Source: a virus. From it: 35,617 bases of DNA. Position 1 is the stretch's first letter; each line of letters opens with the position of its first letter. Below, in pieces: positions 7,959 through 34,370 of this stretch. The translations under genes and the position numbers were made by a program. The stretch covers positions 1-35,617 of the IMG/VR virus record IMGVR_UViG_3300033142_000349; one strand, given 5' to 3'. The notes beneath the pieces are model-generated. The model did no database searches. It had not been told where the DNA came from and saw nothing but the letters and a program-made list of their open reading frames with translations.

Positions 7959-7972
7959 CGTGTGATAATAAT

Positions 7973-8001
7973 AAAGGCGGCCTTTGCGCCGCTTTTTTTT
8001 T
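7973..8001 (+). terminator. Rho-independent terminator
   Basis: The stem AAAGGCGGC (7973-7981) pairs with GCCGCTTTT (7988-7996), including one G-T wobble, and has a six-base loop. A run of T residues continues to about 8001. It lies 15 bases after a stop codon and just before the next gene, whose ATG is at 8014. Confidence 0.82.
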
Positions 8002-8013
8002 AAAATATTACAA

Positions 8014-9994: not shown

Positions 9995-11866
9995 ATGGCA
10001 GAATCAAAAAATACTTTTATAAAGTCTAAGATGAATCAAGATCTAGACAGTAGATTAATTCCTAATGGTGAATATAGATCAGCATTTAATATCGCAGTAA
10101 GTCAAAGCGAAGGATCTGACGTAGGAACATTAAGAACTGTACTAGGTAACTTAGAAATTAGTGATTTTGGATTCACTGAAGAATGTAATGTAAAAATTAT
10201 AGGTCACTGTGTTGACGATGAAAAGAATTTTATTTATTTATTCTTTACTAACTTTATTGATACTTCTTCTGATAAATTAAGTAATTATCCTTCGGATGAA
10301 GCAATCTGTCAGATTTGGAGAAGAGATCTTGAAACGAGTAGTAATGTAAAATTAGTGGAAGGAAAGTTTCTTAATTTTTCTCTAACACATCCTATATCTG
10401 GTATTAATGTATTAGAAGAATTACTTTTTTGGACAGATAACAGAAATCAACCGAGAAAAATTAATATTAGTAATGCTAATCCTAGTGCTTCTATAAATCC
10501 TACATACTATACTAATGATGATCAAATAAATGTTATTAAATATTATCCTTATGATCCTATTTTATTAATAAATGATTATGTAGTAGATTACACTATAAAT
10601 ACCGGTACAGTTGGGGATTATAGTGCTTATATAGATGATATAGTATATACATTAGGTGGATCAGGTACAGGAATGACTGTAGAAATTACTGAAGCTACAG
10701 GATTTCCTGGACAACTACGTGGAATTAAAATTATAAATCAAGGTGTAGGATATCAAGATGGAGATGTAGTTGAAATAGCACCTAAAATTGGAGATGCCAC
10801 AATCACTCTTCAAATGGAAGTTGGTACTACCATGAAAGACAAGTGTACTGAAAAACTCCCGGTTAATTCTACTTTCACAGTTTCACCACTAGCTGATTTA
10901 GATAATGGGTTGCCTATTGATGTAATTCATGACTCTGGACCAGAGTTAGATGAAGTAGATTATACAGGAGCTTTAGTAAGAATTACTGGAACAAGCGCTA
11001 GTCCTTATTTAGCAAGAGTTACTGGTCAATCTTCGGGAACACCTGATACGTTAACTATTGAATGGCCTAATATAATTCCTACTCAAGTAACTGATGTAGC
11101 GTTAATTGAAGTAGGTATGAATCCTGACTACGATCCTAATTGGCCAGGTGATTGTGAATATTTAAAAGACAAATTTGTAAGATTTGGTTATAGATTTAAG
11201 TTTAATGATAACGAATATTCTCTTATTTCTCCATTTACACAAGCATGTTTTATACCTAAACAAAATGGTTATTTTTTATCTAAAACTAAAGAAGTATTTG
11301 ATGCAACAGGTATAGCGTCCGAAGTATCCATTACAGACACTCAACAAACGTTAGAAAGTACAGAAGTAGAGTTTTTTGAAAATGCCGTTACTAATGTAGA
11401 TTTAATTATTCCTTGCCCAATATTTTTAGATGAAAGTATATCAGGATTTAATAATTTAACAGAACAATTACATGTAGAAGCTATTGAAATAATATATAAA
11501 GATGATGCAGAAACTGTATTAAAAGTAGTAGATGTTATTGATAAAGTATCTTTTTCTAATATAAATTCTAATATATTGTTATATGATTATCAGTCTAGAA
11601 AACCCATAAAAGTATTACCTGAATCTGAAATAACTAGAGTAAGTGATAAAGTGCCTTTAAGAGCTTTAACGCAAGAAGTTGTAGGCAATAGAGTAATGTA
11701 CGGTAACTACATCGATGGTCATTCTAGTTTGAATAGTTTAAATTATGAAGTAAATGCAGGTCCTAAATTTAATCTTCCTGAAAACACATTAAGAAAAGAA
11801 TATCAAAACCATACATTAAAACAAAATAGAAATTACCAAGTTGGAATTGTTTTATCTGATAGATAA
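9995..11866 (+). CDS. Large tail/virion protein, N-terminal piece
   Basis: This is the first 623 residues of the large tail protein. The start (ATG four bases after the previous stop) is well placed. The opening (NTFIKSKMNQDLDSRLIPNG, then YRSAFNIAVS) resembles, from memory, the start of very large tail proteins of marine phages. The protein is beta-rich and Asp/Asn-rich, with no catalytic motif seen. Residues about 221-262 hold a Gly-rich repeat unit ending GVGYQDGDVVEI that recurs in the next piece. The frame stops at TAA after LSDR, but coding continues directly beyond it. In a podovirus-like virion this could be a tail hub, nozzle or muzzle component; that is inference from size and position. 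Confidence 0.65.
   Translation: MAESKNTFIKSKMNQDLDSRLIPNGEYRSAFNIAVSQSEGSDVGTLRTVLGNLEISDFGFTEECNVKIIGHCVDDEKNFIYLFFTNFIDTSSDKLSNYPSDEAICQIWRRDLETSSNVKLVEGKFLNFSLTHPISGINVLEELLFWTDNRNQPRKINISNANPSASINPTYYTNDDQINVIKYYPYDPILLINDYVVDYTINTGTVGDYSAYIDDIVYTLGGSGTGMTVEITEATGFPGQLRGIKIINQGVGYQDGDVVEIAPKIGDATITLQMEVGTTMKDKCTEKLPVNSTFTVSPLADLDNGLPIDVIHDSGPELDEVDYTGALVRITGTSASPYLARVTGQSSGTPDTLTIEWPNIIPTQVTDVALIEVGMNPDYDPNWPGDCEYLKDKFVRFGYRFKFNDNEYSLISPFTQACFIPKQNGYFLSKTKEVFDATGIASEVSITDTQQTLESTEVEFFENAVTNVDLIIPCPIFLDESISGFNNLTEQLHVEAIEIIYKDDAETVLKVVDVIDKVSFSNINSNILLYDYQSRKPIKVLPESEITRVSDKVPLRALTQEVVGNRVMYGNYIDGHSSLNSLNYEVNAGPKFNLPENTLRKEYQNHTLKQNRNYQVGIVLSDR
10655..10779 (+). repeat. Gly-rich beta repeat unit, copy 1 (protein level)
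   Basis: The encoded segment begins GGSGTGMTVEIT and ends NQGVGYQDGDVVEI. The same pattern (GGSG-G-TV ... G-GY--GD---I) occurs at 12179-12311. Such units are common in phage tail and bacterial surface beta structures. Confidence 0.6.
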
Positions 11867-18905: not shown

Positions 18906-21900
18906 ATGGAAAAATTAATGCAAGAGCTCCAACGTAAAGGTTTGTTTCCAGCAGATGGAACTTTACAAGAGTTTGTTAAGCAATATGGTAATAAAGAAGC
19001 TTTAACAAGTTTACACACTGATTTAGTAAGTAAAGAAATACTAGATGATAGTGTAGCTGATTTTGATTCTTTTGTTACAGGTTTTGAATTATCTGAGGTG
19101 GTAACACCTACTGTTTTAGGTGGTGATGATCCTTTTGAAACTACAGGTTTAGAAGAACCTTCTATTCCTAATACGCCACAGTCTATAGCCTCAGATTTAG
19201 ATCAAGATTTGCAACAGTGGTATCAAGGTGAGTTAGAAAAACTAACCTTACCTAATGGTGCTAAAATACCTCAATACGATGCTGCTTTAAAAAGATTAAA
19301 CGCAGAATTAAATACTAGAAGATTAGATAATGCTAGTGTAAATATGGATAATATTGCACAGCAACAAATAATTCCTTATTTAGGTGGAGAAACGTCAAAC
19401 CCAATTATAGAGATTAGTGATCCCTCAGAAGTTGTGTCTGAGCAAAGAGCTGGTGAAGAATTTGTTTATGGTGGACAATCTCAATTAGAAGATAGATATA
19501 ATAGACAAACCACGGATGCTGAAGCTAAACCTCAAACAGGTATTCATTCGTGGATGTTTACAGAAAGTAATGTTAATTTAAAACCGTATGGAGCACCTAG
19601 TTCTCAAGGCGTAAAAGATACGGAATATAAGCTAGCAAATAAACTATGGACGATTAGTGATGAATTTGATGGAAGCATAGATAAAACACTAGTGCCAGTA
19701 CTTGAAAGACAATACCCTGGTTATGAATTTAAATCAGCAAGAGAAAAAGGCTTAAAAAAAGCAGGTACGCTTAACAATATTCATGGTATTCCTATTGAAG
19801 TCACTGCTCCAAATGGTGAAAAAACTACTATACATGGAGGATTAGATCCTTCTGGAGTAGCTAAAAATGTAGACTTAACAAAAACTATAGAAGAGCAAAA
19901 AGTTAAATTAGCAAACTTCATTAACACTCATGGTATAGACTTAACAAAAGTTAAATCTAGTATTCAAAGTACCGCTCAGAGGTATAATGATCTATTAGCA
20001 AAACCATATAATGAAAAGAAAGTTTCTCTTGGTGGTATAGGATTAGATCTTAACCAACAGGCTACAGCTGATAGTTACGGTATAGGTGAATATATAGAAG
20101 ATGAGAACGGTACAGTAAGTTATAAATTTGAATATAATCCAGCTTTATTTCATGATAATTCATATGAAGATTACTTAGCAACTAATGGTGAAGAATTAAT
20201 TTCAAGAGGAGTAATAACTCAAGACGAATTATCAAACCCTGACAGCGAAGAAACTAAAAGTAAAATTAAAAAAGATATCTTAGTTACTCATGGTGAGTAT
20301 GGTGATGATAGAGAATTACAACTCCCAAACTACGGACCTAAAGCTGCCGGTTACAAAGCAATCATCCATGATATAGATTTTGGAAACAAATATATGGCAT
20401 TTTCAAAAGGTAGTAAGGCTTGGGATAATACGGTTAAAGCTTTAGCCCCTGCTTATAATGCTGCTGGTGTAGATTTAGATGATGAGACGATTAAAACACA
20501 TATTGCTCAAAAAGAACATAATAAGTATGTTAATGGTGCGTTAGACGCTAACTTGAATGAATATTTATGGAAGTCTGACAATGATAACAAAACTCAAGCT
20601 TTATTTTCTGTTGCTGCTATAGTTACTAAAGATGTTAAGTTAAATCAAGCTATGGCTTTACAAGGTCTTAATGAAGCTGCTATAGATAACTATAATAAAC
20701 CTACTCCAGATTTAGCTATAGTAGACATGTTTGAAGAAACTTACAATGATCCTTCAGGTTCTTTCAACATAGAGGGATTAAGTGAAGATAATATAGTAAC
20801 ACTTAGAAATGGTAAACAAGTTTCTAAAAAAGATTTTAATGGGTATGTAGCTGCTAAAAGTAGAAGAAACAACCAAATGACAGCTATGCTAGATCGTAGG
20901 TCTAAAGCTTGGGAGTTACAAGATGAAGTTGGAGATATAGATGCTAATATAAAATTATTAGAAAAAAATTATAACGCTTGGAGTTCATCACTAGCTACTT
21001 TAGGATTAGGTTTTAGTGACATTGGAACTGGATTACTTTATTTAGGAGGTAAAGCAGCTAAATACACACCTGTAGGTGCTGGAGCTACTTTCTGGTTGGG
21101 ACAAGCTGCTAACGCTTTTACTGAAGATGGAAATTTTTTAACAGACTTTTGGGATGAGTGGGACAAAGAATGGGCAGATCAGTACGATGATTATAGTTTT
21201 TGGAAAGAAGGAATTAAAAGCCAATACGGTAAAGAAGTAGGTTTTCATAGAGATAGATTTGGAAGAGGAGGAGCATTTTCTCCTGGAAATTTTGGAAGAT
21301 TCGTAGCACAAGAAACTTCTAAACAAATACCTATTTTAGCTACTATGATTGCTAGTGGTGGAACCGCTGCACCTTGGGTTATTGGTGCTTACTCTGCTGG
21401 TCAACATTGGGCAGATGCAGATAGAAAAGAATACGTAACTGGTAAAGTTGAAAACGAGTTTATACAAGGTATGCAATCAATTGGCTATGGTGCTGCTGAA
21501 GGAATTTTTGAAAGACTTACTACTGTGCCTATATTAAGAAGAGGTGGTAAGCTGGTTCAAGGGTTAGGAGAACCTAGTATGTTAAGCTACAGGAATGCAA
21601 TGAAACAATATTTTAAAGAAAATGGAGCGTTTCTAGTTTCTAGTCCTATTGCTGAATCTGCTGCTGAATTTGGTACTCAAATAACACAAAATGCTATTGA
21701 TGGTAGACCAATCATGGAAAATGTAGATCATGCTGCTTTTGTAGGAGGTATGTTTGGTCATGCCATGAGTATAACACCTTTCATGTCAGGCCTTGCTGCT
21801 AGACAATTTAGTGATTATAATTCTTTTTCAGAATACAAAAATAGGCAACAAGAAATAAACGAGCTTGAACAAGAATTAGTTTATGAAACACAAAGGTTTG

Positions 21901-24900
21901 CAATTCCTCAAGATATAGCTTCTATTAAAATGAAGCAAAAAGTTATTGATGATTTAAAAGTAGAGCAAAAAGCTTTTGTTGAAGAAAAGTTTGCCGCTAT
22001 TCAAAATACAATGACTAATAGTGCTTATAACAACTTTGAAGAAGCTTTGAACGAGCAAGCGGACATTAGTGAGGTTGTTAATGATATGTTATCAGTTGAC
22101 AACACTAATACTAACAATAAATTACTTCAAGTATATAAAGATAGATTTGACAACTTACAATATAAAAGAGATGTATGGAGAAGTGCGGCAAATTTCTCTA
22201 ATCAATTTACATTATTAGAAACATCTAATAAAGAAAGATACGACCGTACGGTTAAGCAAGCTAAAGCACAGTTAGCTAAAGATAACGTAGGAAATGTAAG
22301 AGATGATCAAGTTTTACCATTAGCTGAAGAAATATATGTAGGTGAACTAATAGATGAGAACTTTGAATCAGTCGCTAAAAATAAATCTAAAGGTAAAAGA
22401 TATTTAAAATTCGATACTAACGGAGAAGCTTTAACGTATATAGAGGATGTTCTCGCGACCTCTAAGGAGAAAATAAATGCTAAGAAGGATTTAACAGACG
22501 AACAAAAAAAGTCTCGTATAGTTAATCTAGAACGACAGATAAGAGATGTTAAGGATAACGTCAACAAGAAGGAAACTAAAGGTGCGATAACTAGTTTGTT
22601 AGAAGGTAGATTAAGTGGTTGGAATATGACGTTTGATGCTGATGGTATATTAACAACTGATCCAGCGGCTATAAAAAGAAGTGAAGTTTTAGGTTTTAGA
22701 GAAAATGCGATAAGAAACAATGAGACTCAAATATTCACGCATGAAGCAGGTCATGATATTTTTGGAGAATTATTAGGTTATGACTCTAAAGAGTTTAAAC
22801 CTTTAGCTGATGAGATAATATCTTACATGTCAAAGACTAATCCTATGTTATTAAAAGGATTAGCTTTAAAAAGAGGTAGAGAGTTACAGAAGTCAGATGA
22901 AGTAGTAATGAATTTTTTAGAACTTGTTGGACAAAAGAAAATAAACATTGAAGATAAACAAGGTGGATTACTTTCTTCTTCTTTTGGTTTTATAACTAAT
23001 AATATTTTTAAAAACAACAACAAACCCACTATGGAGTTTAATGGACAAAATGGTGCTATTAAATTTCTACATGAATTAGGAACTGCAGTGTCTGAAGGTA
23101 GAGTTACTCCAGAAATGGTAGCTAAATGGAAGAGAGAGGGTGTTATACAAGGAGCTAAAAAGAAATATCAAAAAGCTCAACGTCAATATAAAAAGTTGAT
23201 TGAAGAATCAGCCATAGCATTATTAGATGAAAATATAGATAATTATAAATTTTCCGATACTAAAGATGTTGAAGACGCAAATCAAATCATGAAAGATTTA
23301 TTAGCTTTAGTTGCGGACAATAAAGTTACTCCAGTAAAAAACTATGAAGCTAAGAAAGCAGCATTAACAGCTAAGTATCAAAAACTTAAAAGTGAATCTT
23401 CAGTTGTGGAAACAGTTCCAATATTTGAAGGTAGTATAAGAGATGAATCTGACGCAGCAAGAAAAGAAAGAGTTAATTTAATAGAAAGATCTTTCAGAGG
23501 TAGATTAGAAACTGCACAAGGTGGTAGACCTATGGGGGAAATTCTTAGAGCTTATGAAGGGAAAATTGAAGCACTGTTTAAAAAAGGTGGATACTATGCT
23601 ACAGATTCTTATCAGAGATTTCAAGATATTTCAGAAGCGTTGGAAGAGTTTACTGCTATAACAAATGTAGAACTAATGAAATCTATTCGTGCATTTAAAC
23701 CAGATGTAAATAAAGATTTTGATGCTTACATAATGAGTCCTAAGATCTTGCCTAATAAAGTTAAGTTAGCTAATAAAATTATAGGTAGAGAATCTAAAAA
23801 TGAAGGATTTGACACTGGATTAGAAGCTGCTAGTGGAGTAGCGGTAAGTGAAGATACTACTTTAGAAGAATTTGAAACAACATTAAGAGAAGTATTAGGT
23901 GTAAAGAAAGGTGATCCAATGTATGAAGCAGCTATGACGGCTGTTCAAGATGTAATGCAAAAAGGTTTACCTAAGTTTGAATACACACAAAGAAAGAAAA
24001 GCGGTGGAGGAGAAACTGTAACTCTCGCACAGGTTAGAAAAACATTAAGTACTAATCCCACTGGTGAAGCTAAAAGACAAGCAGAAAGAGATTTAGCTGG
24101 GATAATGAAAAAGGTTAAATCAGAGCTAGAAGCTAGTTATCAACAAGCTTTAGATAAGACCATTAAACAAGAATTTTTAAAAGCCAAAGTGTATGATTCT
24201 TTTTTAAAAGAACATCGTACTGAGTTATTAAAACGTTTACCTATTGAAGATCTAGTAGCTCTAGAAAGATTAGTAAAGCCAGAAAGTAAGATATTTACTA
24301 GTGTCAGAGTGATGGATAAACAAACTGGTAGAACTGTTTTAAATCCTACTGAAGTTAAACAGTATGAAGGATCTGGAAATTTAACTACAGCAACTACTAC
24401 TCAAGGTCCTACTTTATACAATAGAAAAAACCCAAGTGAAAAACAATTTGTAGATTTCTTTAACGTTAGAGGAAGAAAAAATGCTTTAGCTAAAATACTT
24501 AGTAATGTTTTAGGATTAGATGCTACTATGCAAAATATAACTAGTGAAAAGGTTGTTAATGAAGTAGCTGAAGGAAATCCTCAAATTAAAGAACAATTAG
24601 GTGAACAAGCTTTAAAAGATTTTGCGTTATCTATAGGAAGAGGTACTGCTTTTAAATTTTCAATGGCCGAGTCTGTAGGCATGGAAGGTAGATTAGCAGA
24701 AGACTATAATAAGTTGCAACCAAATATTTTAGATCTTATAATTGACATGAATGTGTCTGATCCCATGTCAGTTAATTTAGCGGTAGATGTAGTATTATCT
24801 GAAGGCAAGTATGCTCCATATAGAAGTGCAATTAAAAAGAATTTAAAAAGATTTTTAAGACCTTACGCTAAAGCCGTTGACTCACCGGGTGAAATTCAAA

Positions 24901-27900
24901 TAGATATTAATGAGTACATAACTAGAGAACTTGATAGAACTGAAGATGAAAGTATTCAGAGAATGTGGAATTCAAAACCAATGGCGCAAGCTTTTGCTAA
25001 TCCAACCGATGTTGTACTTCAAAGAGAGTTTGACAATAGGACTATTCAACAAGAACTTTTAAATAAAGCAGGTTATGATAGTAAAGGTAATCAAAATCCA
25101 GTTACAGAGCAAATTAAAATAGACCAAGCTGCTTTAGAGGTAAGATATATGGCTAGGATTCAATCTGGTGTAGAAGTAGTTTCAAAGAAAGCAAGGAACA
25201 TGCTTTACCAAAATATTAGTTCGTTTAAAGCTGATTTCTTAAAATCTAATTTTGGATTCAAAGATTATAACACTTTCAACGTAAAAGATAAAAACGGAAA
25301 ATCTACTAGATATCTAGAGTTTATAAGAGAAGATGGATCACGTACTAAACCAGTGGTTTTTCCTACAAGTCCTTCTCAAAAAGTAGAACTTAATATGATA
25401 GATGGTTCTATGACTCAAGCAGAAGTAGATTTTAGAGAAAAAATGGCTGATGAAGCGTGGAACTTTGTTGTTAATAAATATAAAGCCGCAAAAGAAGTAG
25501 TAGAAAATGACAGTGCTGATGAGTTAAATATAGCAATGTTAATGGCTGGTATGGGTAGTATGATGAAAGGGCCAATTAGAGCAGCTGCTCCTTTTAGATA
25601 TCGACCTGTTGACGCGCCATTTACAACTTTAAAAGATTCTGATGGAAATAAAAATTTCGAATACGAACATGGTATACCAGCTAAAATAGTTAACTTGCTA
25701 ATTGCTGATGCAGTATTCAATCCTGACAGTGATGTTAATCTACAAAAACTAAAAGATTCATATGCGATAGGTGCTATTCCTGTAGATATGAACGAAAACT
25801 TTAGCACGTTTTTTGGAGATAGAATGCAAGACACTTATAAGGTTGGTGACATTGCACCTACAAGATGGTACAATGAATACACTAGAGGTAGAGCTGCTTA
25901 CGCTGTAGAAGATGTTAGAACTAAAGAAAGGTTTGGAGAGAAAGAAGCTCAGTTGTGGAAAGAAGAACAGCAAGCTGCTAATGTTAATAAATTTTCTTTA
26001 TCTAATGATGTAGTTGATATGGACGGGTTAAAACCAGATGAGATATTAAATTACGCAGCAACTATAGATAAGGCTTTACAAATAGCAAGAGATCCTAACG
26101 CCCCTGTCAAGAAGATTAGAGTATTTGATTTTGATGATACACTAGCCACAACAAAAAGTAATGTACTATATACTATGCCTGATGGTACCACTGGTAAATT
26201 AACTGCTGAAGAGTTTGCTAAAAAAGGAGATGAGATGGTAGCTCAAGGAGTTAAGTGGGATTTCTCAGAGTTTAATAAAGTAATGCAAGGTGGTAAAGGA
26301 CCTTTACTTGGAGTTGCTAAATTAATTCAACAAGCGAGAGGAACTAAAGACGTATTCGTGCTCACTGCTAGATCTCAAGAAGCCGCGCCAGCTATTAAAG
26401 AATTTTTAGATAGCGTTGGTTTAAAAATTCCTTTGAAAAATATTACAGGATTAGGTAATAGTTCTCCTTTCGCTAAATCTAGATGGGTTATAGAAAAAGC
26501 TGCAGATGGCTATAATGATTTCTATTTTGCTGATGATCATATGGGTAATGTTAAAGCTGTAGAAGATGCATTGTCAGTTATAGACGTTAAGTCAAAAGTA
26601 CAGCAAGCTAAATTCAAATTTAGTGAAAGTGTTGATAGAGATTTTAACATTATTCTAGAACATTCGCTTGGCATAGAATGGTTCAAAGACTATAGCAAAG
26701 CTAAGGGAGAAATGTTAGGGAAGCAGAATCAAAAAAGAAAAATACATCCTTATTCTGCAGAAGATTTTGAAGGGTTGATATATCCCTTACTAGGAAAAGG
26801 CAAAAGGGGAGATTCCAATTATAAGTGGTTTGAAGAACATTTATTTAAACCATTCTCAAGAGCAATGACTGATCTAGATTCTGCTAGAATAAACTTAATG
26901 GATGATTTTAGAGCTTTAAAGAAAACATTAATCGCTCCTAAAACAATTAAAAAAATAAACTCTACAGGATTTACTAACGAAAATAGTATTAGAGTTTTTG
27001 TTTGGGATAAATTAGGTAAAACTATACCTGGTTTAAGTAAAATTGATTTAGCTGAAATAAATAAAGAAATAGAAAATAATCCTGAATTAAAATTATTTGC
27101 TGAAGAATTAATTAAAATAAACAAAGGTGAGTATAAAGAACCTGGTAAACATTGGCTAGCAGGGACAATCACTACAGATCTTTACGAAGGATTAAATACT
27201 ATAAAGAGAGCAGAATATTTAAAACAATGGAAAGAAAACGTTGACATTATATTTTCTGATAAAAACTTAAACAAACTAGAATCTAAGTTTGGTCCTAAAT
27301 ACATTGAAGCTTTAAAAAATTCTTTGAGAAGAATGGAATCTGGTTCTAACAGATCATTTAGTAATAATAGACTTACTAATCAAGTGTTAGACTATTTAAA
27401 CAATGCTCAAGGAGTTGTAATGTTTTTGAACATGAGATCAGCTTTATTACAAGGTATATCAAATGTCAATTTCTTGAATTGGTCTTTTAATAATCCTCTT
27501 AAAGCTGGTGTTGCTTTTGGTAATATGCCACAATACTCTAAAGATTTTATAGAGTTAATGAACTCTGATTATTTAGTTAACAGAAGGGGTGGATTATCAA
27601 TGGATATACACGCAGATGAGGTTGCTAATAGTGCTAAGACTTCTAAAAATAAAGCTAAAGCAATAATTAGTTATATAATAGAAAAAGGATACACTCCAAC
27701 TAAGTTTATGGATAGTTTCGCTATAGCTTCAGGTGGTGCTACTTTTTATAGAAATAGAATAAACGATTTAGTTAAAAAAGGATTAAGCGAGGAAGAAGCA
27801 AGAGCTCAAGCTTACGAGGAGTTTGTAGAAATATCAGAAAAAAATCAGCAATCATCTAGACCAGATAAAATATCTTCTCAACAAGCTAGTACTTTAGGAA

Positions 27901-28661
27901 GATTAACATTAAACTGGGCTAATACTCAAATGCAGTATGTGAGAATACAAAAGAAAGCAATTCAAGATATAGCTAATAACAGAGGAGATTTTAAAACAAA
28001 TGTTAGTAGAATAGTTTATTATGGAGTTGTACAAAACTTATGGTTTCAAATGGCTCACTCAGCTATGTTTGCATTAGCATTTGGAGAAGATGATGATGAT
28101 CCTACTTTTAAAGAAGATAAGATAGAAAGAACTGCAAATGGAGCTGCTGATAATATTCTAAGAGGATTAGGAATTGGAGGGCATGTATTTTCTGTACTTA
28201 AAAATATGGGTATAAAAATATATAAAGAATCAGAAAAAGATCGACCGCGATATGCAGATCAGTTATGGGAATTATTTAAGTTGTCTCCAGTTATAAGTTC
28301 TAAAGTTAATAGACTTAAGCAAGCAGCTTGGCAATTCGATTCTAAAAAGAGGAGACAAGAAATGATTGATAAAGGATTTGCTTTAGATAATCCCGCTTAT
28401 GAAGCAGGCGCTAAAGTAGTAAGCGCTGTAACAAATATACCTGTAGATAGATTGTTAATTAAGATGCAAAATATAGGAGATGCATTGTCAGAAGAAACAG
28501 ATGCGTGGATGGATATAGCTTTATTACTAGGTTGGCCAAGATGGACTTTAGAAGCAAAGAAAAAAGAAACTTCAAAATGGGGACCTACAAAAGATAAAAA
28601 GAAAGATAGTTGGGGACCTAGTGGATATAAAAAAGAAAAATCATGGGGTCCACAAAAGTAG
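18906..28661 (+). CDS. Giant polyvalent-type internal virion protein with protease and HAD domains
   Basis: A 3,251-residue protein, nearly a quarter of the window. N-terminal short helical domain (1-70), then about 600 uncharacterised residues. Hydrophobic segments lie near residues 693-738, 808-833 and 943-965 and could cross or disturb a membrane. Residues 1279-1283 are HEAGH, the zinc-metalloprotease HExxH motif, in the context IFTHEAGHDIFGELLGYD. A complete HAD hydrolase motif set follows: DFDDT at 2408-2412, Thr2487, Lys2524 and the acidic pair Asp2543-Asp2544, indicating phosphatase activity. A helical C-terminal region leads to a Lys-rich tail with three WGP repeats. This layout matches the large polyvalent proteins of phages, which are thought to be injected with DNA. 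Ejection is inference; no lysozyme motif was recognised. Confidence 0.7.
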   Translation: MEKLMQELQRKGLFPADGTLQEFVKQYGNKEALTSLHTDLVSKEILDDSVADFDSFVTGFELSEVVTPTVLGGDDPFETTGLEEPSIPNTPQSIASDLDQDLQQWYQGELEKLTLPNGAKIPQYDAALKRLNAELNTRRLDNASVNMDNIAQQQIIPYLGGETSNPIIEISDPSEVVSEQRAGEEFVYGGQSQLEDRYNRQTTDAEAKPQTGIHSWMFTESNVNLKPYGAPSSQGVKDTEYKLANKLWTISDEFDGSIDKTLVPVLERQYPGYEFKSAREKGLKKAGTLNNIHGIPIEVTAPNGEKTTIHGGLDPSGVAKNVDLTKTIEEQKVKLANFINTHGIDLTKVKSSIQSTAQRYNDLLAKPYNEKKVSLGGIGLDLNQQATADSYGIGEYIEDENGTVSYKFEYNPALFHDNSYEDYLATNGEELISRGVITQDELSNPDSEETKSKIKKDILVTHGEYGDDRELQLPNYGPKAAGYKAIIHDIDFGNKYMAFSKGSKAWDNTVKALAPAYNAAGVDLDDETIKTHIAQKEHNKYVNGALDANLNEYLWKSDNDNKTQALFSVAAIVTKDVKLNQAMALQGLNEAAIDNYNKPTPDLAIVDMFEETYNDPSGSFNIEGLSEDNIVTLRNGKQVSKKDFNGYVAAKSRRNNQMTAMLDRRSKAWELQDEVGDIDANIKLLEKNYNAWSSSLATLGLGFSDIGTGLLYLGGKAAKYTPVGAGATFWLGQAANAFTEDGNFLTDFWDEWDKEWADQYDDYSFWKEGIKSQYGKEVGFHRDRFGRGGAFSPGNFGRFVAQETSKQIPILATMIASGGTAAPWVIGAYSAGQHWADADRKEYVTGKVENEFIQGMQSIGYGAAEGIFERLTTVPILRRGGKLVQGLGEPSMLSYRNAMKQYFKENGAFLVSSPIAESAAEFGTQITQNAIDGRPIMENVDHAAFVGGMFGHAMSITPFMSGLAARQFSDYNSFSEYKNRQQEINELEQELVYETQRFAIPQDIASIKMKQKVIDDLKVEQKAFVEEKFAAIQNTMTNSAYNNFEEALNEQADISEVVNDMLSVDNTNTNNKLLQVYKDRFDNLQYKRDVWRSAANFSNQFTLLETSNKERYDRTVKQAKAQLAKDNVGNVRDDQVLPLAEEIYVGELIDENFESVAKNKSKGKRYLKFDTNGEALTYIEDVLATSKEKINAKKDLTDEQKKSRIVNLERQIRDVKDNVNKKETKGAITSLLEGRLSGWNMTFDADGILTTDPAAIKRSEVLGFRENAIRNNETQIFTHEAGHDIFGELLGYDSKEFKPLADEIISYMSKTNPMLLKGLALKRGRELQKSDEVVMNFLELVGQKKINIEDKQGGLLSSSFGFITNNIFKNNNKPTMEFNGQNGAIKFLHELGTAVSEGRVTPEMVAKWKREGVIQGAKKKYQKAQRQYKKLIEESAIALLDENIDNYKFSDTKDVEDANQIMKDLLALVADNKVTPVKNYEAKKAALTAKYQKLKSESSVVETVPIFEGSIRDESDAARKERVNLIERSFRGRLETAQGGRPMGEILRAYEGKIEALFKKGGYYATDSYQRFQDISEALEEFTAITNVELMKSIRAFKPDVNKDFDAYIMSPKILPNKVKLANKIIGRESKNEGFDTGLEAASGVAVSEDTTLEEFETTLREVLGVKKGDPMYEAAMTAVQDVMQKGLPKFEYTQRKKSGGGETVTLAQVRKTLSTNPTGEAKRQAERDLAGIMKKVKSELEASYQQALDKTIKQEFLKAKVYDSFLKEHRTELLKRLPIEDLVALERLVKPESKIFTSVRVMDKQTGRTVLNPTEVKQYEGSGNLTTATTTQGPTLYNRKNPSEKQFVDFFNVRGRKNALAKILSNVLGLDATMQNITSEKVVNEVAEGNPQIKEQLGEQALKDFALSIGRGTAFKFSMAESVGMEGRLAEDYNKLQPNILDLIIDMNVSDPMSVNLAVDVVLSEGKYAPYRSAIKKNLKRFLRPYAKAVDSPGEIQIDINEYITRELDRTEDESIQRMWNSKPMAQAFANPTDVVLQREFDNRTIQQELLNKAGYDSKGNQNPVTEQIKIDQAALEVRYMARIQSGVEVVSKKARNMLYQNISSFKADFLKSNFGFKDYNTFNVKDKNGKSTRYLEFIREDGSRTKPVVFPTSPSQKVELNMIDGSMTQAEVDFREKMADEAWNFVVNKYKAAKEVVENDSADELNIAMLMAGMGSMMKGPIRAAAPFRYRPVDAPFTTLKDSDGNKNFEYEHGIPAKIVNLLIADAVFNPDSDVNLQKLKDSYAIGAIPVDMNENFSTFFGDRMQDTYKVGDIAPTRWYNEYTRGRAAYAVEDVRTKERFGEKEAQLWKEEQQAANVNKFSLSNDVVDMDGLKPDEILNYAATIDKALQIARDPNAPVKKIRVFDFDDTLATTKSNVLYTMPDGTTGKLTAEEFAKKGDEMVAQGVKWDFSEFNKVMQGGKGPLLGVAKLIQQARGTKDVFVLTARSQEAAPAIKEFLDSVGLKIPLKNITGLGNSSPFAKSRWVIEKAADGYNDFYFADDHMGNVKAVEDALSVIDVKSKVQQAKFKFSESVDRDFNIILEHSLGIEWFKDYSKAKGEMLGKQNQKRKIHPYSAEDFEGLIYPLLGKGKRGDSNYKWFEEHLFKPFSRAMTDLDSARINLMDDFRALKKTLIAPKTIKKINSTGFTNENSIRVFVWDKLGKTIPGLSKIDLAEINKEIENNPELKLFAEELIKINKGEYKEPGKHWLAGTITTDLYEGLNTIKRAEYLKQWKENVDIIFSDKNLNKLESKFGPKYIEALKNSLRRMESGSNRSFSNNRLTNQVLDYLNNAQGVVMFLNMRSALLQGISNVNFLNWSFNNPLKAGVAFGNMPQYSKDFIELMNSDYLVNRRGGLSMDIHADEVANSAKTSKNKAKAIISYIIEKGYTPTKFMDSFAIASGGATFYRNRINDLVKKGLSEEEARAQAYEEFVEISEKNQQSSRPDKISSQQASTLGRLTLNWANTQMQYVRIQKKAIQDIANNRGDFKTNVSRIVYYGVVQNLWFQMAHSAMFALAFGEDDDDPTFKEDKIERTANGAADNILRGLGIGGHVFSVLKNMGIKIYKESEKDRPRYADQLWELFKLSPVISSKVNRLKQAAWQFDSKKRRQEMIDKGFALDNPAYEAGAKVVSAVTNIPVDRLLIKMQNIGDALSEETDAWMDIALLLGWPRWTLEAKKKETSKWGPTKDKKKDSWGPSGYKKEKSWGPQK
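22722..22766 (+). other. HExxH zinc-protease motif in giant protein
   Basis: Encodes IFTHEAGHDIFGELL. His1279 and His1283 would bind zinc and Glu1280 would act as general base. The residues after the motif match the helical continuation seen in zincins. The third ligand is not certain. Confidence 0.65.
26112..26600 (+). other. HAD-family phosphatase domain in giant protein
   Basis: All four HAD motifs are present in order with normal spacing: KIRVFDFDDTLA (motif I, nucleophile Asp2408 and acid Asp2410), VFVLTARS (motif II, Thr2487), Lys2524 in SPFAKSRW (motif III) and FYFADDHMGN (motif IV, Asp2543/Asp2544). It therefore looks catalytically competent. Confidence 0.8.
28559..28661 (+). repeat. 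WGP tandem tail repeats of giant protein
   Basis: The last 34 residues hold three units of the form Ser-(Lys)-Trp-Gly-Pro separated by Lys-rich linkers (SKWGPTKDKKK, DSWGPSGYKKEK, SWGPQK). The last unit overlaps the start of the next gene. Confidence 0.7.
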
Positions 28662-29305
28662 CATTAGTAACACCAACTAGAGGAGATAGACCTTTATTCA
28701 AGGATCAGTATTGGAATATAATAAAAAATCAAACTAGAAAACCTGATGAAGTTATAGTTGTAGATTATCCTCCTGTTAGTGATAAAAAAGATTTGTCAGC
28801 TAGATATAAAAAAGGTATTAAAGAAGCGGAGGAGAAAGGCTGTAATGTAGTTTTATTATGGGAAGATGATGATTGGTATCACCCGCAATATATTGAATGG
28901 ATCTTAGATCAGTGGGAAAAAAATAAACAACCAGATATATTAGGTGTAGAAGAAACATATTATTATCATATAAAAGTAAATAAATTTAAACATTTAGTAC
29001 ATGGTGGTAGGTCTTCTGCATTTTGCTGTTTACTAAAACTACCTTATAAATATAGTTATCCTCATGATGAAAACATTTGGTTTGATTTACACCTATTTAA
29101 GAATCATGCTAAGAAACATTTGAAAGTTAAAACAATTAAATTTGATGATAAAGTATATGCTATAGGTATAAAACATGGTACAGGTGTGACAGGAGGAGTA
29201 GGACATAAAATAAAGTTTCCTTGGGATAAAAAAGATGGTTTACAATGGTTAAATCAAAACTGTAGTGATAATGAGATTTATCAACAAATTGCTAAACAAA
29301 TATAA
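28643..29305 (+). CDS. Glycosyltransferase, GT2-like (GT-A fold)
   Basis: A 220-residue sugar transferase using a nucleotide-sugar donor. The N-terminus VALVTPTRGDRPLF followed by QTRKPDEVIVVDYPP is the GT2 start (first strand and donor pocket). Residues 74-77 (EDDD in LLWEDDDWYHPQYIEW) are the metal-binding DxD motif. The end part holds GIKHGTGVTGGVGHK. The start codon lies 19 bases inside the giant protein gene, indicating tight coupling. The acceptor is unknown: a glycan on the virion or the host surface are the options, and two more such enzymes sit on the opposite strand. Length is short for the family, so it is the catalytic domain alone. Confidence 0.8.
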   Translation: MGSTKVALVTPTRGDRPLFKDQYWNIIKNQTRKPDEVIVVDYPPVSDKKDLSARYKKGIKEAEEKGCNVVLLWEDDDWYHPQYIEWILDQWEKNKQPDILGVEETYYYHIKVNKFKHLVHGGRSSAFCCLLKLPYKYSYPHDENIWFDLHLFKNHAKKHLKVKTIKFDDKVYAIGIKHGTGVTGGVGHKIKFPWDKKDGLQWLNQNCSDNEIYQQIAKQI

Positions 29306-29419
29306 ATGAAAAAGAAATGTTGGAAAGGCTATGTGGCTAAAGGTAAAAAGAAATCACCTAGTGGAAAGAAGGTTAATGGTAAAATAAAAATGGTTAACAA
29401 CTGCGTAAAGAAAAAGTAA
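29306..29419 (+). CDS. Small Lys/Cys peptide
   Basis: A 37-residue frame starting on the base after the glycosyltransferase stop and ending in TAATG, where its stop shares one base with the next start. The product (MKKKCWKGYVAKGKKK, then SPSGKKVNGKIKMVNNCVKKK) is 43 percent Lys, with two Cys residues framing the body. The exact abutment at both ends makes it a real coupled gene. From memory, similar Cys-Trp-Lys-Gly-Tyr peptides occur in marine phages. Function unknown; a DNA- or virion-associated basic peptide is a guess. Confidence 0.7.
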   Translation: MKKKCWKGYVAKGKKKSPSGKKVNGKIKMVNNCVKKK

Positions 29420-29694
29420 TGGCTAAAAAAAGTGTTAATGCTAGATATGAAAAGCGTAATAAAAAAATGCGTTCAGATCATAAAAAAGAAACAGGTAAGA
29501 CGTTAGGTAAAAGACAAACATCTGGTACGGGTAGTAGAAGAGTTTCTTTTGCTTGTCGATTTGCAGGTATGTCAGGTGGAATGACTAAACCTAATGGAGA
29601 GCCTACTAATTTAAGAATGGCTTTGAAAAAATGGGGATTTAGTAGTAAAGGTGAGGCTAGAAAGTTTTGTAATAAACATAAAAAGAAAAAATGA
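29419..29694 (+). CDS. Small basic protein, DUF6321-like (putative)
   Basis: A 91-residue protein with about one-third Lys plus Arg and no hydrophobic segment. The body GTGSRRVSFACRFAGMSGGM, followed by NLRMALKKWGFSSKG, resembles small basic proteins (DUF6321 type) common in marine phages, where 'RR-SF--R--GM' precedes 'AL-KW'; this is from memory. Strong positive charge suggests nucleic-acid or virion packing. It overlaps the peptide gene before it by one base (TAATG) and the gene after it by four (ATGA), so the set is translationally coupled. A basic Lys tail (KHKKKK) ends the protein. Confidence 0.7.
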   Translation: MAKKSVNARYEKRNKKMRSDHKKETGKTLGKRQTSGTGSRRVSFACRFAGMSGGMTKPNGEPTNLRMALKKWGFSSKGEARKFCNKHKKKK

Positions 29695-30548
29695 AATATT
29701 TATTAACTTTAATATTTACGTTTTTAATATTGATAGGATATTCTCAATGTGATAATGGTACAAACTATTATCCATCGTTCATCTATACACCGGTAGAAGA
29801 CGCTTGGGATTATGCTTCATCTTGTAATTGGGCTGGAGAAGTTATACAACTTAATGTAAAAGCAGGAGATACATATGAGTTTTCTACATGTGATCAATAT
29901 GGATTTGAGCAAGCTAGTTATGATACACAAATAACATTATTAGATGGATTAGGTAATTTGTTAGATTTTAATGACGACTATGGTGGATGTGCAGGGTATA
30001 CATCTTATCTTAGATGGGTTGCTCCTTATAGTGGTACAGTTTATTTACATTTAAACGAGTACTATTGTTTGACTAACTTTACATGTACTACAGTTATGAT
30101 ATACCGTACACCTTCATTTGCTTTACCTATAGAGTTAATATCATTTACTGGTGAAATATTAGGAGGAGATATACATCCTGTAGTAATGATTAATTGGGAG
30201 GTTGCTTCTCAAGTTAATAATGATTACTATGAAGTACAGAGAAGTATAGATGTTGAAACTTGGAATACAATAAACACTGTGACAGGAGCCGGTAATAGTA
30301 ACACCCAAATGTCATACTCTATTTTAGATGATAATCCACTGCATGGAGTTTCTTATTATCGTCTGAAACAAACCGATTATGACGGACAGACCGAATCGTT
30401 TAATCCTATATCAATTATAATCAGTTCAGAAGAAAAGATCATAGATAAAGTTGTAAATTTTATGGGACAAGAAGTAAATGAAAACTATAAAGGAATGGTA
30501 TTAGAAATATACCGTGACGGAACTTATGTAAAGAAAAATTATGAATAA
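29691..30548 (+). CDS. Secreted protein with PPC-like domain and type IX secretion-like C-terminus
   Basis: A 285-residue exported protein. Residues 1-19 are a signal peptide (MKYLLTLIFTFLILIGYSQ) of flavobacterial type. Residues about 40-138 resemble a PPC domain (WAGEVIQLNVKAGDTYEFST, ASYDTQITLLDG, FNDDYGGC). Residues about 145-245 match the beta-sandwich (LPIELISFTGE; NNDYYEVQRS; GVSYYRLKQTDYDGQ) found before the sorting domain in many secreted flavobacterial proteins. The end (VVNFMGQEVNENYKG, then YRDGTYVKKN) looks like the type A sorting signal of the type IX secretion system. It is probably host-derived and would be displayed on or released from the infected cell. It is the last gene of the late operon, overlapping the preceding gene by ATGA. 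Exact role unknown. Confidence 0.8.
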   Translation: MKYLLTLIFTFLILIGYSQCDNGTNYYPSFIYTPVEDAWDYASSCNWAGEVIQLNVKAGDTYEFSTCDQYGFEQASYDTQITLLDGLGNLLDFNDDYGGCAGYTSYLRWVAPYSGTVYLHLNEYYCLTNFTCTTVMIYRTPSFALPIELISFTGEILGGDIHPVVMINWEVASQVNNDYYEVQRSIDVETWNTINTVTGAGNSNTQMSYSILDDNPLHGVSYYRLKQTDYDGQTESFNPISIIISSEEKIIDKVVNFMGQEVNENYKGMVLEIYRDGTYVKKNYE

Positions 30549-30592: not shown

Positions 30593-30625
30593 AAAAAGGG
30601 GATCTCAATACGAGGTCCCCTTTTT
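30593..30625. terminator. Bidirectional terminator between convergent operons
   Basis: The 14-bp stem AAAAAGGGGATCTC (30593-30606) pairs with GAGGTCCCCTTTTT (30612-30625), with a single G-T wobble and the loop AATAC. A-run and T-run on either side give U-tracts in both directions. It sits between the stop at 30548 (plus) and the stop at 30643 (minus). Confidence 0.93.
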
Positions 30626-30642: not shown

Positions 30643-31170
30643 TTATTTATCTTCACCAATCTTTCTTAGTTTATAAATACCATTGTGAGTAGTTATATTT
30701 TCTTCATTTATATTAACAAAACTAGGATATTCACTAAACAGATATTTTGATTTTAAATTAAATAAAGATTTTATATTTTCTTGAACTTTATTAGGATCTG
30801 TTATTAATTCTTCATATTTAACTGTTAAATCTATATAATTTTTATATTTAAAAGCTTGATTCATACAGGCATCATATCTACTTTCATTCACATAATTATT
30901 ATCGGAGAGTAGAACATCTTCTTTATTTCTTACCATATTAACTATATGAATATTTTTTAATAAAGGTAGTTGTTTTTCTATTTCTTGTTCATTTAATATA
31001 GTGGAAAACATTGTTTTAATAGTTCTTTTACCTACATTAAAATCACTTTTTAGAAAATTTATTAATTTTATTTCATCTTTATTATATACTTTTAAATCAA
31101 ACGCGTTGAATAATCTTCTTAATAATGTTGTACCTGTTTTAGCACAACCTGTTATGTATATTTTTTTCAT
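30643..31170 (-). CDS. Sulfotransferase-family protein
   Basis: A 175-residue enzyme that would transfer a sulfate group from PAPS to an acceptor. Residues 8-15 (GCAKTGTT in KKIYITGCAKTGTTLLRRLF) form the 5'-phosphosulfate loop. Residues 78-92 (NMVRNKEDVLLSDNN) match the 3'-phosphate motif, with Arg81 and Ser89. Shorter than typical carbohydrate sulfotransferases (250-350 residues), so it is a compact version. Its start follows the stop of the glycosyltransferase before it without a gap. The natural substrate is probably the glycan made by its neighbours, but this is inference. A kinase-like P-loop is less likely because the motif lacks the GK[ST] core. Confidence 0.75.
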   Translation of the reverse strand: MKKIYITGCAKTGTTLLRRLFNAFDLKVYNKDEIKLINFLKSDFNVGKRTIKTMFSTILNEQEIEKQLPLLKNIHIVNMVRNKEDVLLSDNNYVNESRYDACMNQAFKYKNYIDLTVKYEELITDPNKVQENIKSLFNLKSKYLFSEYPSFVNINEENITTHNGIYKLRKIGEDK

Positions 31171-31833
31171 TTATATAGTATTTAATCCCATTCCGAAGTG
31201 GTTTCTTGTTCCTCTTTTTATCGTAGAAATGTATTTTTTTATATTATCTATTTTAATTAATTCTTCATCAGGAGTATTTAACATAAAATTTAAACAAGGA
31301 GCTCCATGTAATTCAAAATTATATAAGCTTTTATTATATTTATATTTATCTATAACCATCATGGAGGGATGAATATATTTATAACCTTTATTAACATTTA
31401 TACCTTTAGAATTAACATCTATTTTTAATCCTGCAGCTGTAAAGTTTTTTGTTGATAAATAATTTATTATATAATCTAAAGAATTTTTTTCTAACCAACA
31501 GTCAGAGTCTATTATTAACACATATTTAGATCTTATTATTCTGCTTAAAGCTATATGCATTCCTGGACCATGATGTACATTATATCCAAAATTATAGTGG
31601 TTTATGTTATTAGCATTAATTAATTCTTTTTTTAGTTTATTATTTGTTTCTACTATTATATCTCCTCTTTCTATTAATCTATAATCGCTACCGTCTATAA
31701 TATTTATTTCTATATTTTTATCTTCATTTCTAACACTATTGATTAAATTAAAAATAAAATCTGGTGTATTATAGTTAACAGTTAAAATAGATAAATTATT
31801 TCTACTTATTGGCTCATGTTTATTTAAGATCAT
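31171..31833 (-). CDS. Glycosyltransferase family 2
   Basis: A 220-residue GT2-type enzyme. I place the start at 31833 because AAGGAGAAAGA lies just upstream of that ATG; the longer reading from 31869 overlaps the upstream gene by 50 bases, against 14 here. The N-terminus LSILTVNYNTPDFIFNLINS is the classical GT2 start. DSD at residues 109-111 (YVLIIDSDCWLE) is the metal-binding motif. A possible acceptor region is HGAPCLNFML. It lies between another GT2 gene and the sulfotransferase, forming a three-gene glycan-modification unit. Confidence 0.85.
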   Translation of the reverse strand: MILNKHEPISRNNLSILTVNYNTPDFIFNLINSVRNEDKNIEINIIDGSDYRLIERGDIIVETNNKLKKELINANNINHYNFGYNVHHGPGMHIALSRIIRSKYVLIIDSDCWLEKNSLDYIINYLSTKNFTAAGLKIDVNSKGINVNKGYKYIHPSMMVIDKYKYNKSLYNFELHGAPCLNFMLNTPDEELIKIDNIKKYISTIKRGTRNHFGMGLNTI

Positions 31834-32509
31834 TTCTTTCTCCTTTTCCGGCGAGTGGAACTTTAACAAATGGTTCTACTATACAAACTTTATTTGGTAT
31901 TTTATTATGTAATTTACTTATTACTCTAAAGTCTGAACATTTCCATTTATCCCATATCGCAAAGTCTTTATATTTAGAATGAAATATTAAACAGCTTCCT
32001 CCTATACGTGCTAATTGTGGGGTCCATTTTTCTGATCCAAAAGGAAATAATACTTTTCTGTTTTTAATTTCACTAGGAATTTTAATATTTTTACTACCCC
32101 ATTCCATTTGAAAATAAATTAAAGTATCTTCATTATATTTATTTACATGTGTAACTAATTTACTTAAAGAATGTTGATCCACAAAGTAATCATCATCATC
32201 TATATATATTATCCACCCTTCTTTTATTTCTTTATGTACTTCATTAAAGTATAAATTATGAGCAGATAATCTTCCTGTTTTTGGATCTTTAGTTTTATCG
32301 TTTTTAACTAGAGAAATAGGATCATATATATAATATTCTTCTATTCCATTGTTTTTTATATAAGACACATTATCTTTACTATCAGTAATTATAACATGTC
32401 TTATATTTTTATAAGTTTGATTATTGATAGAATTAACATTTCTTTTAAAAAATTCAGGTCTTCCGGAAGTACGAGTTATAACGTTTATTAACGGGTTTTT
32501 ATTTGACAT
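31820..32509 (-). CDS. Glycosyltransferase family 2
   Basis: A 229-residue sugar transferase. Start of fold: PLINVITRTSGRPEFFKRNV, the GT2 pattern with substrate-pocket Arg/Ser. Catalytic centre: residues 104-107 are four Asp in WIIYIDDDDYFVD, covering the DxD motif. The middle stretch (LARIGGSCLIFHSKY) fits the acceptor-side loop. The end is basic (KGERNDLK). The ATG lies two bases beyond the reductase stop and its 3' end overlaps the next GT2 gene by 14 bases, so the two are co-expressed. Acceptor unknown: surface polysaccharide, teichoic-like polymer or capsid glycan are possible. Confidence 0.85.
   Translation of the reverse strand: MSNKNPLINVITRTSGRPEFFKRNVNSINNQTYKNIRHVIITDSKDNVSYIKNNGIEEYYIYDPISLVKNDKTKDPKTGRLSAHNLYFNEVHKEIKEGWIIYIDDDDYFVDQHSLSKLVTHVNKYNEDTLIYFQMEWGSKNIKIPSEIKNRKVLFPFGSEKWTPQLARIGGSCLIFHSKYKDFAIWDKWKCSDFRVISKLHNKIPNKVCIVEPFVKVPLAGKGERNDLK
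31834..31848 (-). promoter_or_regulatory. Shine-Dalgarno deciding the GT2 start
   Basis: On the minus strand AAGGAGAAAGA precedes the ATG at 31833-31831. It lies within the last codons of the upstream glycosyltransferase gene. It is one of the rare strong sites in this window. Confidence 0.6.
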
Positions 32510-32511
32510 AT

Positions 32512-32730
32512 TTATTTTATTTCACAAGCTCCACCAGCACAAGCTAGTTCACCTGATAAGTCCGTGTTATCTTCTGTTTCTGTTATGTTTGATAGATCAA
32601 CTTGTTTTAATGATTGCATTAACTCTTGATACTTACGACACGTTATATCCTCAAAAGGAGCTTGAGTATAAGTTCCACCATTAAATGGTAATACAGATAA
32701 ACCATTATAATGTTCTCTGTTTTCCCACAT
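32512..32730 (-). CDS. nrdJ: Class II ribonucleotide reductase, C-terminal piece
   Basis: This frame continues the reductase after the frameshift: WMWENREHYNGLSVLPFNGG, then TYTQAPFEDITCRKYQELMQ, which is the family's usual end region. The protein closes with CAGGACEIK, the Cys-x4-Cys pair (Cys611 and Cys616 in the joined protein) that carries reducing power to the active site in cobalamin-dependent ribonucleoside-triphosphate reductase. The reading frame is open up to about 32749, so the ATG at 32730 is an internal Met. Without this piece the enzyme could not be re-reduced, so either the frames are joined or the enzyme is dead. Confidence 0.8.
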   Translation of the reverse strand: MWENREHYNGLSVLPFNGGTYTQAPFEDITCRKYQELMQSLKQVDLSNITETEDNTDLSGELACAGGACEIK

Positions 32731-34370
32731 CCATTCACCAGCATCGCCCCTTCTGGTTTCAAACTTACTGTTGCTGAAACATTGTGAGTATTAGATCCTT
32801 TTCTATGACCAGGTGTGACCCACTCTGTGGCAACCTTTTTTATACGTTCAAGTAACTGAAATGGTGACTCAGTCCTAAGTATAGATCCTTCAGGTGCTTT
32901 TTGTGGTATACTTATCACAGCAGTATCATGAGGTCGGAAATACTCATCTTCAATTAGCTCAGGATGATGTTCAGCTAAGTATTTATACATTGATTCGTTC
33001 TTCCCAACTCTGACCCTACGTATGTAATAATCATTATGCCATGCATGAATACCCGATGAAGTTCCTAATGCCAGAGATGTCGTCCCTGCAGGCTTCACGG
33101 TTGTACATCTTGCAGCTTTATTAATCCCAATCAGCTTCGCGACTCTTGTGTTTTCTCTTTTTACTACTTGGGCGGCTTTCTCCATGTCGTATCCTAACAC
33201 CGTGCCACTCCCGATCCCCGTCATGCTCACCCCAATCAGCGCGTCTTTTTCGGTTGTCTCTTGCCATATTTCTCTTAAATAGTGAAAGTCTGTATAGCCA
33301 GCTTGTAATGTTCCAATGAACGCAGCAGCTTTCACTCTGTTGTTTAAATCTTCTTGTGATTCAATATCACTAGCATTTACTTCACATAAGTTACAAAACT
33401 GATATGGTCGTAAAGCTATTTCACAACAAGGATTAGTTCCCCAATCTTTGTCATTGTTGAAGTATATACCTGGTTCACCAGCTCCAGACAATTCCACACG
33501 TTTCCAGAGTTTCATAAAATATTCTTTAGTAATTTTATGTCTCATTAAAACCGCAGAGTTATTAGCTCTACCTCTTTGTGGATTAGTTTCCCACCAATCA
33601 CCAGACTTACATGCTATCATTTCATTGTCATCAGCAGAGAATAAAGATATCAAAGCTGCTCTTCTAATACCACCTGCTAAGACAGCGTCTGCTATATGGC
33701 AAACAATATCATGAACTTCTACAGTTGTCAACTGATCTCCATCTTCTTTTGATTGTAATATTCCTTTAAGCTTTACTAAACATTCTTTTAAAGGTTGTGG
33801 GCCAGGAGCTTTACCTCCTGACGTCACTAGCTGAGCACCTTTAGGTCTTATGTCTGAGTAATCGAAACTAATTCTTGACGATCTTCGATCACCCATATAA
33901 GACTTCATTAGCACTTTAATTGCATCAGCCCAACCTTCAATTGAATCACCAATAAGAAATCTTCTCCTACGTTTTTCATAAGGTTTATTTATAGGAGGTA
34001 ATTTGTTTACATGGTGGTTCTGAACAGAATACCCTACTCCTGTTCCTCCAAGAAGCAAAAACATTACTTCGTGGAAAGAATCTACATGGTCAATAGGGAG
34101 ATAAGCGCAGTTATATACTCTATTAGGAGATATCTCAATCGGCTTGCCGCCGAATTGTAAACTCCGCATGCTTGGTAAAACCTTCTTTTCATATACTAAT
34201 TTATAAACATCATTTATTTGATCCGCTAATTGCGGATATGTTTTAATATGCATTGCTTTATTTCGATCTACTAATTCTTCCCAGGTTTCCCTACGTTTTT
34301 CATTAGGTAGATATTTCGCATATTTCATGTACACTGTAATATTAGATAAGATTTCACTTGCTAATTCCAT
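32643..34370 (-). CDS. nrdJ: Adenosylcobalamin-dependent (class II) ribonucleotide reductase, main piece
   Basis: Makes deoxyribonucleotides from ribonucleotides for phage DNA replication, using a radical generated from vitamin B12 coenzyme, so no separate radical subunit is needed. Active-site residues by family comparison: Cys88 (YNCAYLPID), the thiyl-radical Cys315 (NPCCEIAL) and Cys326 (FCNLCEVN). The 11-residue spacing between the last two equals that in the Lactobacillus monomeric enzyme (Cys408/Cys419). Other landmarks are GTGVGYSVQ, KPAGTTSLALG and the GHRKGSNTHNVSATV region. After KPEG the frame goes wrong. Joining the pieces by restoring one G gives about 619 residues. The start overlaps the upstream gene by 17 bases. 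Confidence 0.9.
   Translation of the reverse strand: MELASEILSNITVYMKYAKYLPNEKRRETWEELVDRNKAMHIKTYPQLADQINDVYKLVYEKKVLPSMRSLQFGGKPIEISPNRVYNCAYLPIDHVDSFHEVMFLLLGGTGVGYSVQNHHVNKLPPINKPYEKRRRRFLIGDSIEGWADAIKVLMKSYMGDRRSSRISFDYSDIRPKGAQLVTSGGKAPGPQPLKECLVKLKGILQSKEDGDQLTTVEVHDIVCHIADAVLAGGIRRAALISLFSADDNEMIACKSGDWWETNPQRGRANNSAVLMRHKITKEYFMKLWKRVELSGAGEPGIYFNNDKDWGTNPCCEIALRPYQFCNLCEVNASDIESQEDLNNRVKAAAFIGTLQAGYTDFHYLREIWQETTEKDALIGVSMTGIGSGTVLGYDMEKAAQVVKRENTRVAKLIGINKAARCTTVKPAGTTSLALGTSSGIHAWHNDYYIRRVRVGKNESMYKYLAEHHPELIEDEYFRPHDTAVISIPQKAPEGSILRTESPFQLLERIKKVATEWVTPGHRKGSNTHNVSATVSLKPEGAMLVNGCGKTENIIMVYLYYHLMVELILKLLLRI

Follow-up and report, generated by a model that had tools for sequence, protein, structure and literature searches.

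A probable glycan-sulfation cassette with a compact PAPS sulfotransferase in an uncultured marine tailed phage

The window described here, the entire 35,617-nucleotide stretch of IMG/VR virus record IMGVR_UViG_3300033142_000349, carries a row of three genes that probably form an accessory phage operon for building and sulfating a short glycan (Table 1). Two of the genes encode GT2 glycosyltransferases, and the third is near certain, from its sequence and predicted structure, to encode a PAPS sulfotransferase, which is very probably a working enzyme. The acceptor is likely a glycan, and the sulfated sugar is probably made on the host surface or on the virion.

A three-gene row at a gene-row boundary

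The contig is an incomplete genome of a tailed phage. Its terminase and portal match PHROGs, and relatives of these two proteins at ~41–65% identity, among the matches listed, come from Flavobacterium and Maribacter phages and one spring-water phage record; Cellulophaga and Tenacibaculum phages are also found among the terminase and portal matches. One structural protein contains a Crassvirales muzzle domain. The phage is marine and of a type infecting Flavobacteria-like bacteria, and host contamination is ruled out by the terminase, portal and virion genes on the contig. A single open reading frame of 3251 aa (18906–28661) encodes a giant phage protein of polyvalent type, whose relatives are ~43–53% identical across 800–1000 residues.

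Table 1. Features of the cassette and of the genes that flank it
Feature	Position	Strand	Description
B12-type ribonucleotide reductase (RNR)	32512–34370	-	phrog_367 in two frames; upstream, in the same gene row
Gene 1, GT2 glycosyltransferase	31820–32509	-	229 aa; PF00535 (E 1.3e-7, above cut-off); DXD-type motif IDDDDY
Gene 2, GT2 glycosyltransferase	31171–31833	-	220 aa; PF00535 (E 1.9e-8, above cut-off); DSD motif, IDSDCW
Gene 3, compact PAPS sulfotransferase	30643–31170	-	175 aa; PF13469/PF00685, alignment, model, fold match to TPST2 with PAP
Hairpin terminator	30593–30625		14-pair stem, T-runs on both sides and strands; between convergent gene rows
Secreted-looking protein	29691–30548		between the 28643–29305 gene and the terminator
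DUF6321 gene	29419–29694		between the 28643–29305 gene and the terminator
Probable third GT-A glycosyltransferase	28643–29305	+	PF00535, 21.2 bits against a cut-off of 23.3; convergent side

The three genes are tightly packed. The ATG of gene 1 lies 2 nt past the RNR stop (32512), gene 2 begins within the last 14 nt of gene 1, and the TAA of gene 2 directly abuts the ATG of gene 3 (31171/31170), so that the row runs from the end of the RNR gene to just before the hairpin terminator. The mechanical open reading frame of gene 2 (31171–31869) begins with TTG, and a better start is the ATG at 31833, which is preceded by AAAAGGAGAAAGAA with the ribosome-binding site AGGAG. A preliminary description of the window had proposed two adjacent, overlapping or abutting GT2 genes and a compact sulfotransferase gene, and this arrangement is borne out by open reading frames at exactly these positions and by Pfam matches above cut-off. 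The RNR gene is frameshifted near 32.73–32.75 kb, and in its relatives it is a single intact open reading frame of 620–622 aa; the split reflects either a fault in sequencing or assembly or a genuine break in the gene.

Both glycosyltransferases pass the Pfam test for GT2 (PF00535 plus a DXD-like motif), and that of gene 1 weakly resembles PglI, WcaA and TuaG in NCBIfam. Viral contigs contained no phage relatives of the two enzymes, and phage records gave a single 72-residue partial match for one (GT2a) and none for the other (GT2b); because they lack close phage relatives, the exact cassette of the window is seen once. The preliminary description had also placed a third sugar transferase across the terminator. 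The gene on the convergent side does look like a glycosyltransferase: it contains the motif EDDDW, and a relative with 36% identity lies two genes upstream of the sulfotransferase in another phage (L004). It falls just below the PF00535 cut-off, however, and two genes separate it from the terminator. The secreted-looking protein next to the terminator appears to have a signal peptide, and its C-terminal end looks like the sorting domains of Bacteroidota; it matches no family, and a search for a T9SS sorting domain in NCBIfam was negative up to E 0.1.

The cassette is most likely an accessory insertion at the gene-row boundary, because relatives lack it at the same junction. In five relatives with the same convergent junction, from the end of the giant open reading frame to the end of the RNR gene, the junction is short and variable, and no glycosyltransferase or sulfotransferase gene was seen there. 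The sulfotransferase was also absent from the records of 27 relatives of the window, many of them fragments, in a search in which three positive controls were detected.

The compact sulfotransferase

The protein encoded by gene 3 matches Sulfotransfer_3 (PF13469, 1.1e-6) and Sulfotransfer_1 (PF00685, 3e-6), both above cut-off, which answers in the affirmative the family search suggested in the preliminary description; the match spans 2–96 of a 216-residue domain. The 5'-PSB loop is K11-T-G-T-T15 (in the context GCA-K-TGTTL), and the pattern GCA-[KR]-[ST]-GTTL is kept in 32 of 32 rows of the alignment with phage relatives. The 3'-PB motif RXXXDXXXS is present as R81NKEDVLLS89 (R81, D85, S89). 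Residues G8, C9, A10, G13, T14, T15, E33, K48, R49 and R81 are invariant in this alignment, and S89 (at least 90%) and Y119 are nearly so. E33 aligns with a Glu of tick TPST in a sequence-profile alignment. These motifs agree with a review of the family, which lists a Lys or Arg in the PSB, the PB motif RXXXDXXXS and, as the base, either Glu or His (PMC11625862).

A model built on the 32 sequences has a pLDDT of 94 and a pTM of 0.90, another model has a pLDDT of 84, and the top fold matches of both are PAP-bound sulfotransferases. The best solved structure is TPST2 with PAP (Z 12.0, 3.0 Å, 163 residues), followed by the sulfotransferase domains of CurM and olefin synthase and by TPST1; SULTs and heparan 3-O-sulfotransferases score about Z 10. 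Shikimate kinase matches with Z 9.8 over 127 residues, all within residues 1–142, i.e. the N-terminal part alone. An unrelated P-loop kinase without a PAPS pocket, the outcome that the preliminary description had set against its own reading, is ruled out by the PAPS motifs and by the position of kinases below TPST2 in the fold ranking; family matches, motifs, conservation across 32 sequences and the predicted fold all left the sulfotransferase assignment standing.

The window protein shares the PSB Lys and GTT loop, the PB motif and the P-loop-like fold with Sulfotransfer_3/Sulfotransfer_1 enzymes such as rhizobial NodH (cited in PMC11625862), but at 175 residues it is without the C-terminal part of the domain. 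The nearest solved chains by sequence profile, as by fold, are TPSTs (~3e-5), and in the profile alignment their Glu and that of the window protein coincide behind the PSB helix. Unlike TPST1 and TPST2, to which it is 14–17% identical, the window protein is much smaller, has no membrane anchor and lies in a glycan-gene neighbourhood.

A scan of uncultured viral contigs yielded 63 loci, and related sulfotransferases are carried by about 60 such contigs, while 50,697 phage records contained no relative of the window protein, and none was found in cultured phages. The window protein groups with other compact proteins in a supported clade (100/99; 13 rows with intact motifs, from diverse phages), ~171–185 residues long with N-terminal extensions trimmed, which end near a Y-x-L-R-x-I segment. 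The other, long-form viral relatives continue for ~40 residues, with SIGK...LKELGY, and it is this C-terminal helix region that the compact clade lacks. A branch with 98/89 support separates every viral row from the bacterial rows found, which are about 21–39% identical; this separation may be sharpened by sampling, since both searches rest on a short peptide pattern. The record of locus L012 contains, next to the main copy, a further sulfotransferase match of lesser strength (E 2.3e-5; G043:C1:13821–14132).

Glycan genes and APS kinase around related sulfotransferases

The link to glycans made in the preliminary description is supported by gene neighbourhoods conserved across phages. Among 103 non-redundant genes at most two places from the sulfotransferase, Pfam identifies 11 GT2, six NeuB, five epimerase, four hexapeptide transferase, three amidotransferase and two UDP-glucose dehydrogenase genes, whereas GT2 does not appear among the top families listed for 103 distant genes (five or more places away), which therefore include at most one. 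Of 23 longer records, 20 have a GT2 gene within 2.5 kb of the sulfotransferase gene, where random placement would give 3.9; with the largest clade collapsed, the figures are 11 of 14 observed and 3.2 expected. In four loci (L002, L003, L007 and L012) a GT2 gene directly precedes the compact sulfotransferase gene, as in the window, with no detectable relatedness between these GT2s and those of the window.

APS kinase makes PAPS. A gene for it (PF01583, E < 1e-43) is present in seven of 30 sulfotransferase-bearing records, 1.6–3.3 kb from the sulfotransferase gene in the six records for which the distance was computed. The order varies between records: a cytidylyltransferase, a deacetylase or formyltransferase, NeuB and GT2 lead to the sulfotransferase, and an epimerase, a UDP-sugar dehydrogenase, a small nucleotidyltransferase and APS kinase follow it. 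The loci in which APS kinase accompanies a long-form sulfotransferase (L038, L040, L048, L054, L055, L058 and L068) belong to large marine phages and have cassettes of the NeuB/GT2/UDP-sugar type. Searching outward from APS kinase gave 14 loci, which are not independent, since many belong to records already reached from the sulfotransferase. This sulfotransferase is present in nine of the 14, and a contig end truncates two more. L227 instead carries a different Sulfotransfer_3 gene, three genes further on, and no sulfotransferase was seen near the kinase in L223 and L229. In L227, the APS kinase is fused to a DUF2061 membrane domain (7797–8522) and is followed by a dehydratase and then by the different Sulfotransfer_3 (10125–10847). 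A small HIGH-type nucleotidyltransferase, similar to NMN adenylyltransferase, is paired with APS kinase in L038 (8431–8829), L055 (8384–8785) and L229 (8508–8939); the L229 pair sits amid replication genes, with no sulfotransferase seen. Neither the window nor the compact-form records that were searched yielded an APS kinase, which would leave the host as the source of PAPS for the window enzyme.

Viral cysC (adenylylsulfate kinase) appears in the literature among the auxiliary genes of the sulfur cycle (PMC12766990). The records analysed here likewise place APS kinase in marine virus contigs, but usually beside a sulfotransferase in a glycan cassette, which suggests a supply of PAPS for sulfation. 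In these sulfotransferase cassettes viral cysC may serve sulfation.

Proposed function and its significance

In the proposed pathway, the two GT-A glycosyltransferases would add sugars to an acceptor, most likely lengthening a sugar chain carried by a lipid or protein, after which the sulfotransferase would move a sulfo group from PAPS made by the host onto a glycan hydroxyl. PAPS would be held by K11, T14 and T15 and by R81 and S89, with E33 as the likely catalytic base. The purpose would most likely be remodelling of the host surface during infection, such as receptor masking or a block to superinfection, and less likely decoration of the virion. The preliminary description had named both altered host receptors and a decorated capsid, and the location of the cassette behind a replication-side gene leans slightly toward the host surface. 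Set against a glycan-sulfation operon are the first place by fold of TPST, which sulfates protein tyrosine, the absence of the long-form C-terminal helix region from the compact clade, the failure to find an APS kinase in the window or the searched compact-form records, the incompleteness of the genome, and the two GT2s without close phage relatives.

An alternative in which the enzymes act on a phage protein, such as a capsid or fibre protein, and thereby give the particle a coat of sulfated glycan is unlikely, though less so than the other alternatives. The cassette does sit between structural and replication genes, and in giant viruses sulfotransferase genes have been connected with the glycans of the particle (PMC11625862), but its co-transcription is with the replication-side RNR gene rather than with structural genes, and the neighbouring cassettes of other phages, with their NeuB, cytidylyltransferase and UDP-glucose dehydrogenase genes, resemble cell-surface glycan pathways. 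A TPST-like enzyme that sulfates tyrosines of a phage or host protein, with the glycosyltransferases as unrelated neighbours, would fit TPST1 and TPST2 being the closest solved structures by both sequence profile and fold. This ranking reflects the shared PAPS core, however, with CurM, olefin-synthase, SULT and heparan 3-O-sulfotransferase structures close behind, and the constant partners across phages are glycan genes and not peptide substrates or proteases; tyrosine sulfation is accordingly very improbable.

There is a similarly slight chance that sugar and sulfate are placed on modified bases of the phage DNA. Nucleotide modification by glycosyltransferases and sulfotransferases in phages is reported in a passage of PMC10829341 that cites Iyer 2013, and in L229 the APS kinase and nucleotidyltransferase pair also lies beside replication genes, but the neighbouring genes make sugar precursors, and no base hydroxymethylase, TET/JBP or thymidylate-synthase-like gene was seen among the scanned open reading frames of the window or the top neighbour families, which come from incomplete contigs. 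Least probable of all is a truncated and inactive sulfotransferase-like passenger. Its case would draw on the ~40 C-terminal residues lost by the compact clade and on the frameshift just upstream in the RNR gene; against it, the compact form is itself a supported clade that keeps its motifs in diverse phages, and model confidence is high until near the C-terminus. The preferred and probable reading remains an operon that builds and sulfates a glycan.

The preliminary description fairly called phage-encoded sulfation little described, although earlier reports of phage sulfotransferases exist (PMC10580990, PMC8290583, PMC12285232) and such enzymes are listed as auxiliary genes (PMC8290583, PMC12285232, PMC13079714). 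Those in OM43 phage contigs and Synechococcus phage S-SRM01, whose function the authors call 'unclear', are of the same Pfam family as the window enzyme and also belong to tailed marine phages; a glycan or APS-kinase neighbourhood does not appear in the parts of that account drawn on here (PMC10580990). The open-access literature yielded no description of a phage module that sulfates glycans and brings an APS kinase of its own, and no paper on a sulfotransferase in crAss-like phages.

The broader proposition is evenly poised: that uncultured marine phages carry their own sulfotransferase family in glycan cassettes, some with APS kinase, sugar-nucleotide and NeuB-type genes, and make sulfated surface glycans themselves. 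With glycan genes around them and APS kinase as a partner, phage sulfotransferases of 'unclear' function become the subject of a testable claim, and the same two features suggest that viral APS kinases counted as sulfur-cycle auxiliary genes may need a different reading. If the proposition is true, the window would carry a minimal version of a phage-encoded glycan-sulfation module, and viral cysC would in many cases serve sulfation instead of sulfur assimilation. Sulfation of surface sugars alters their charge and recognition, and a phage that sulfates glycans could hide receptors from rivals or change how host debris is eaten at sea.
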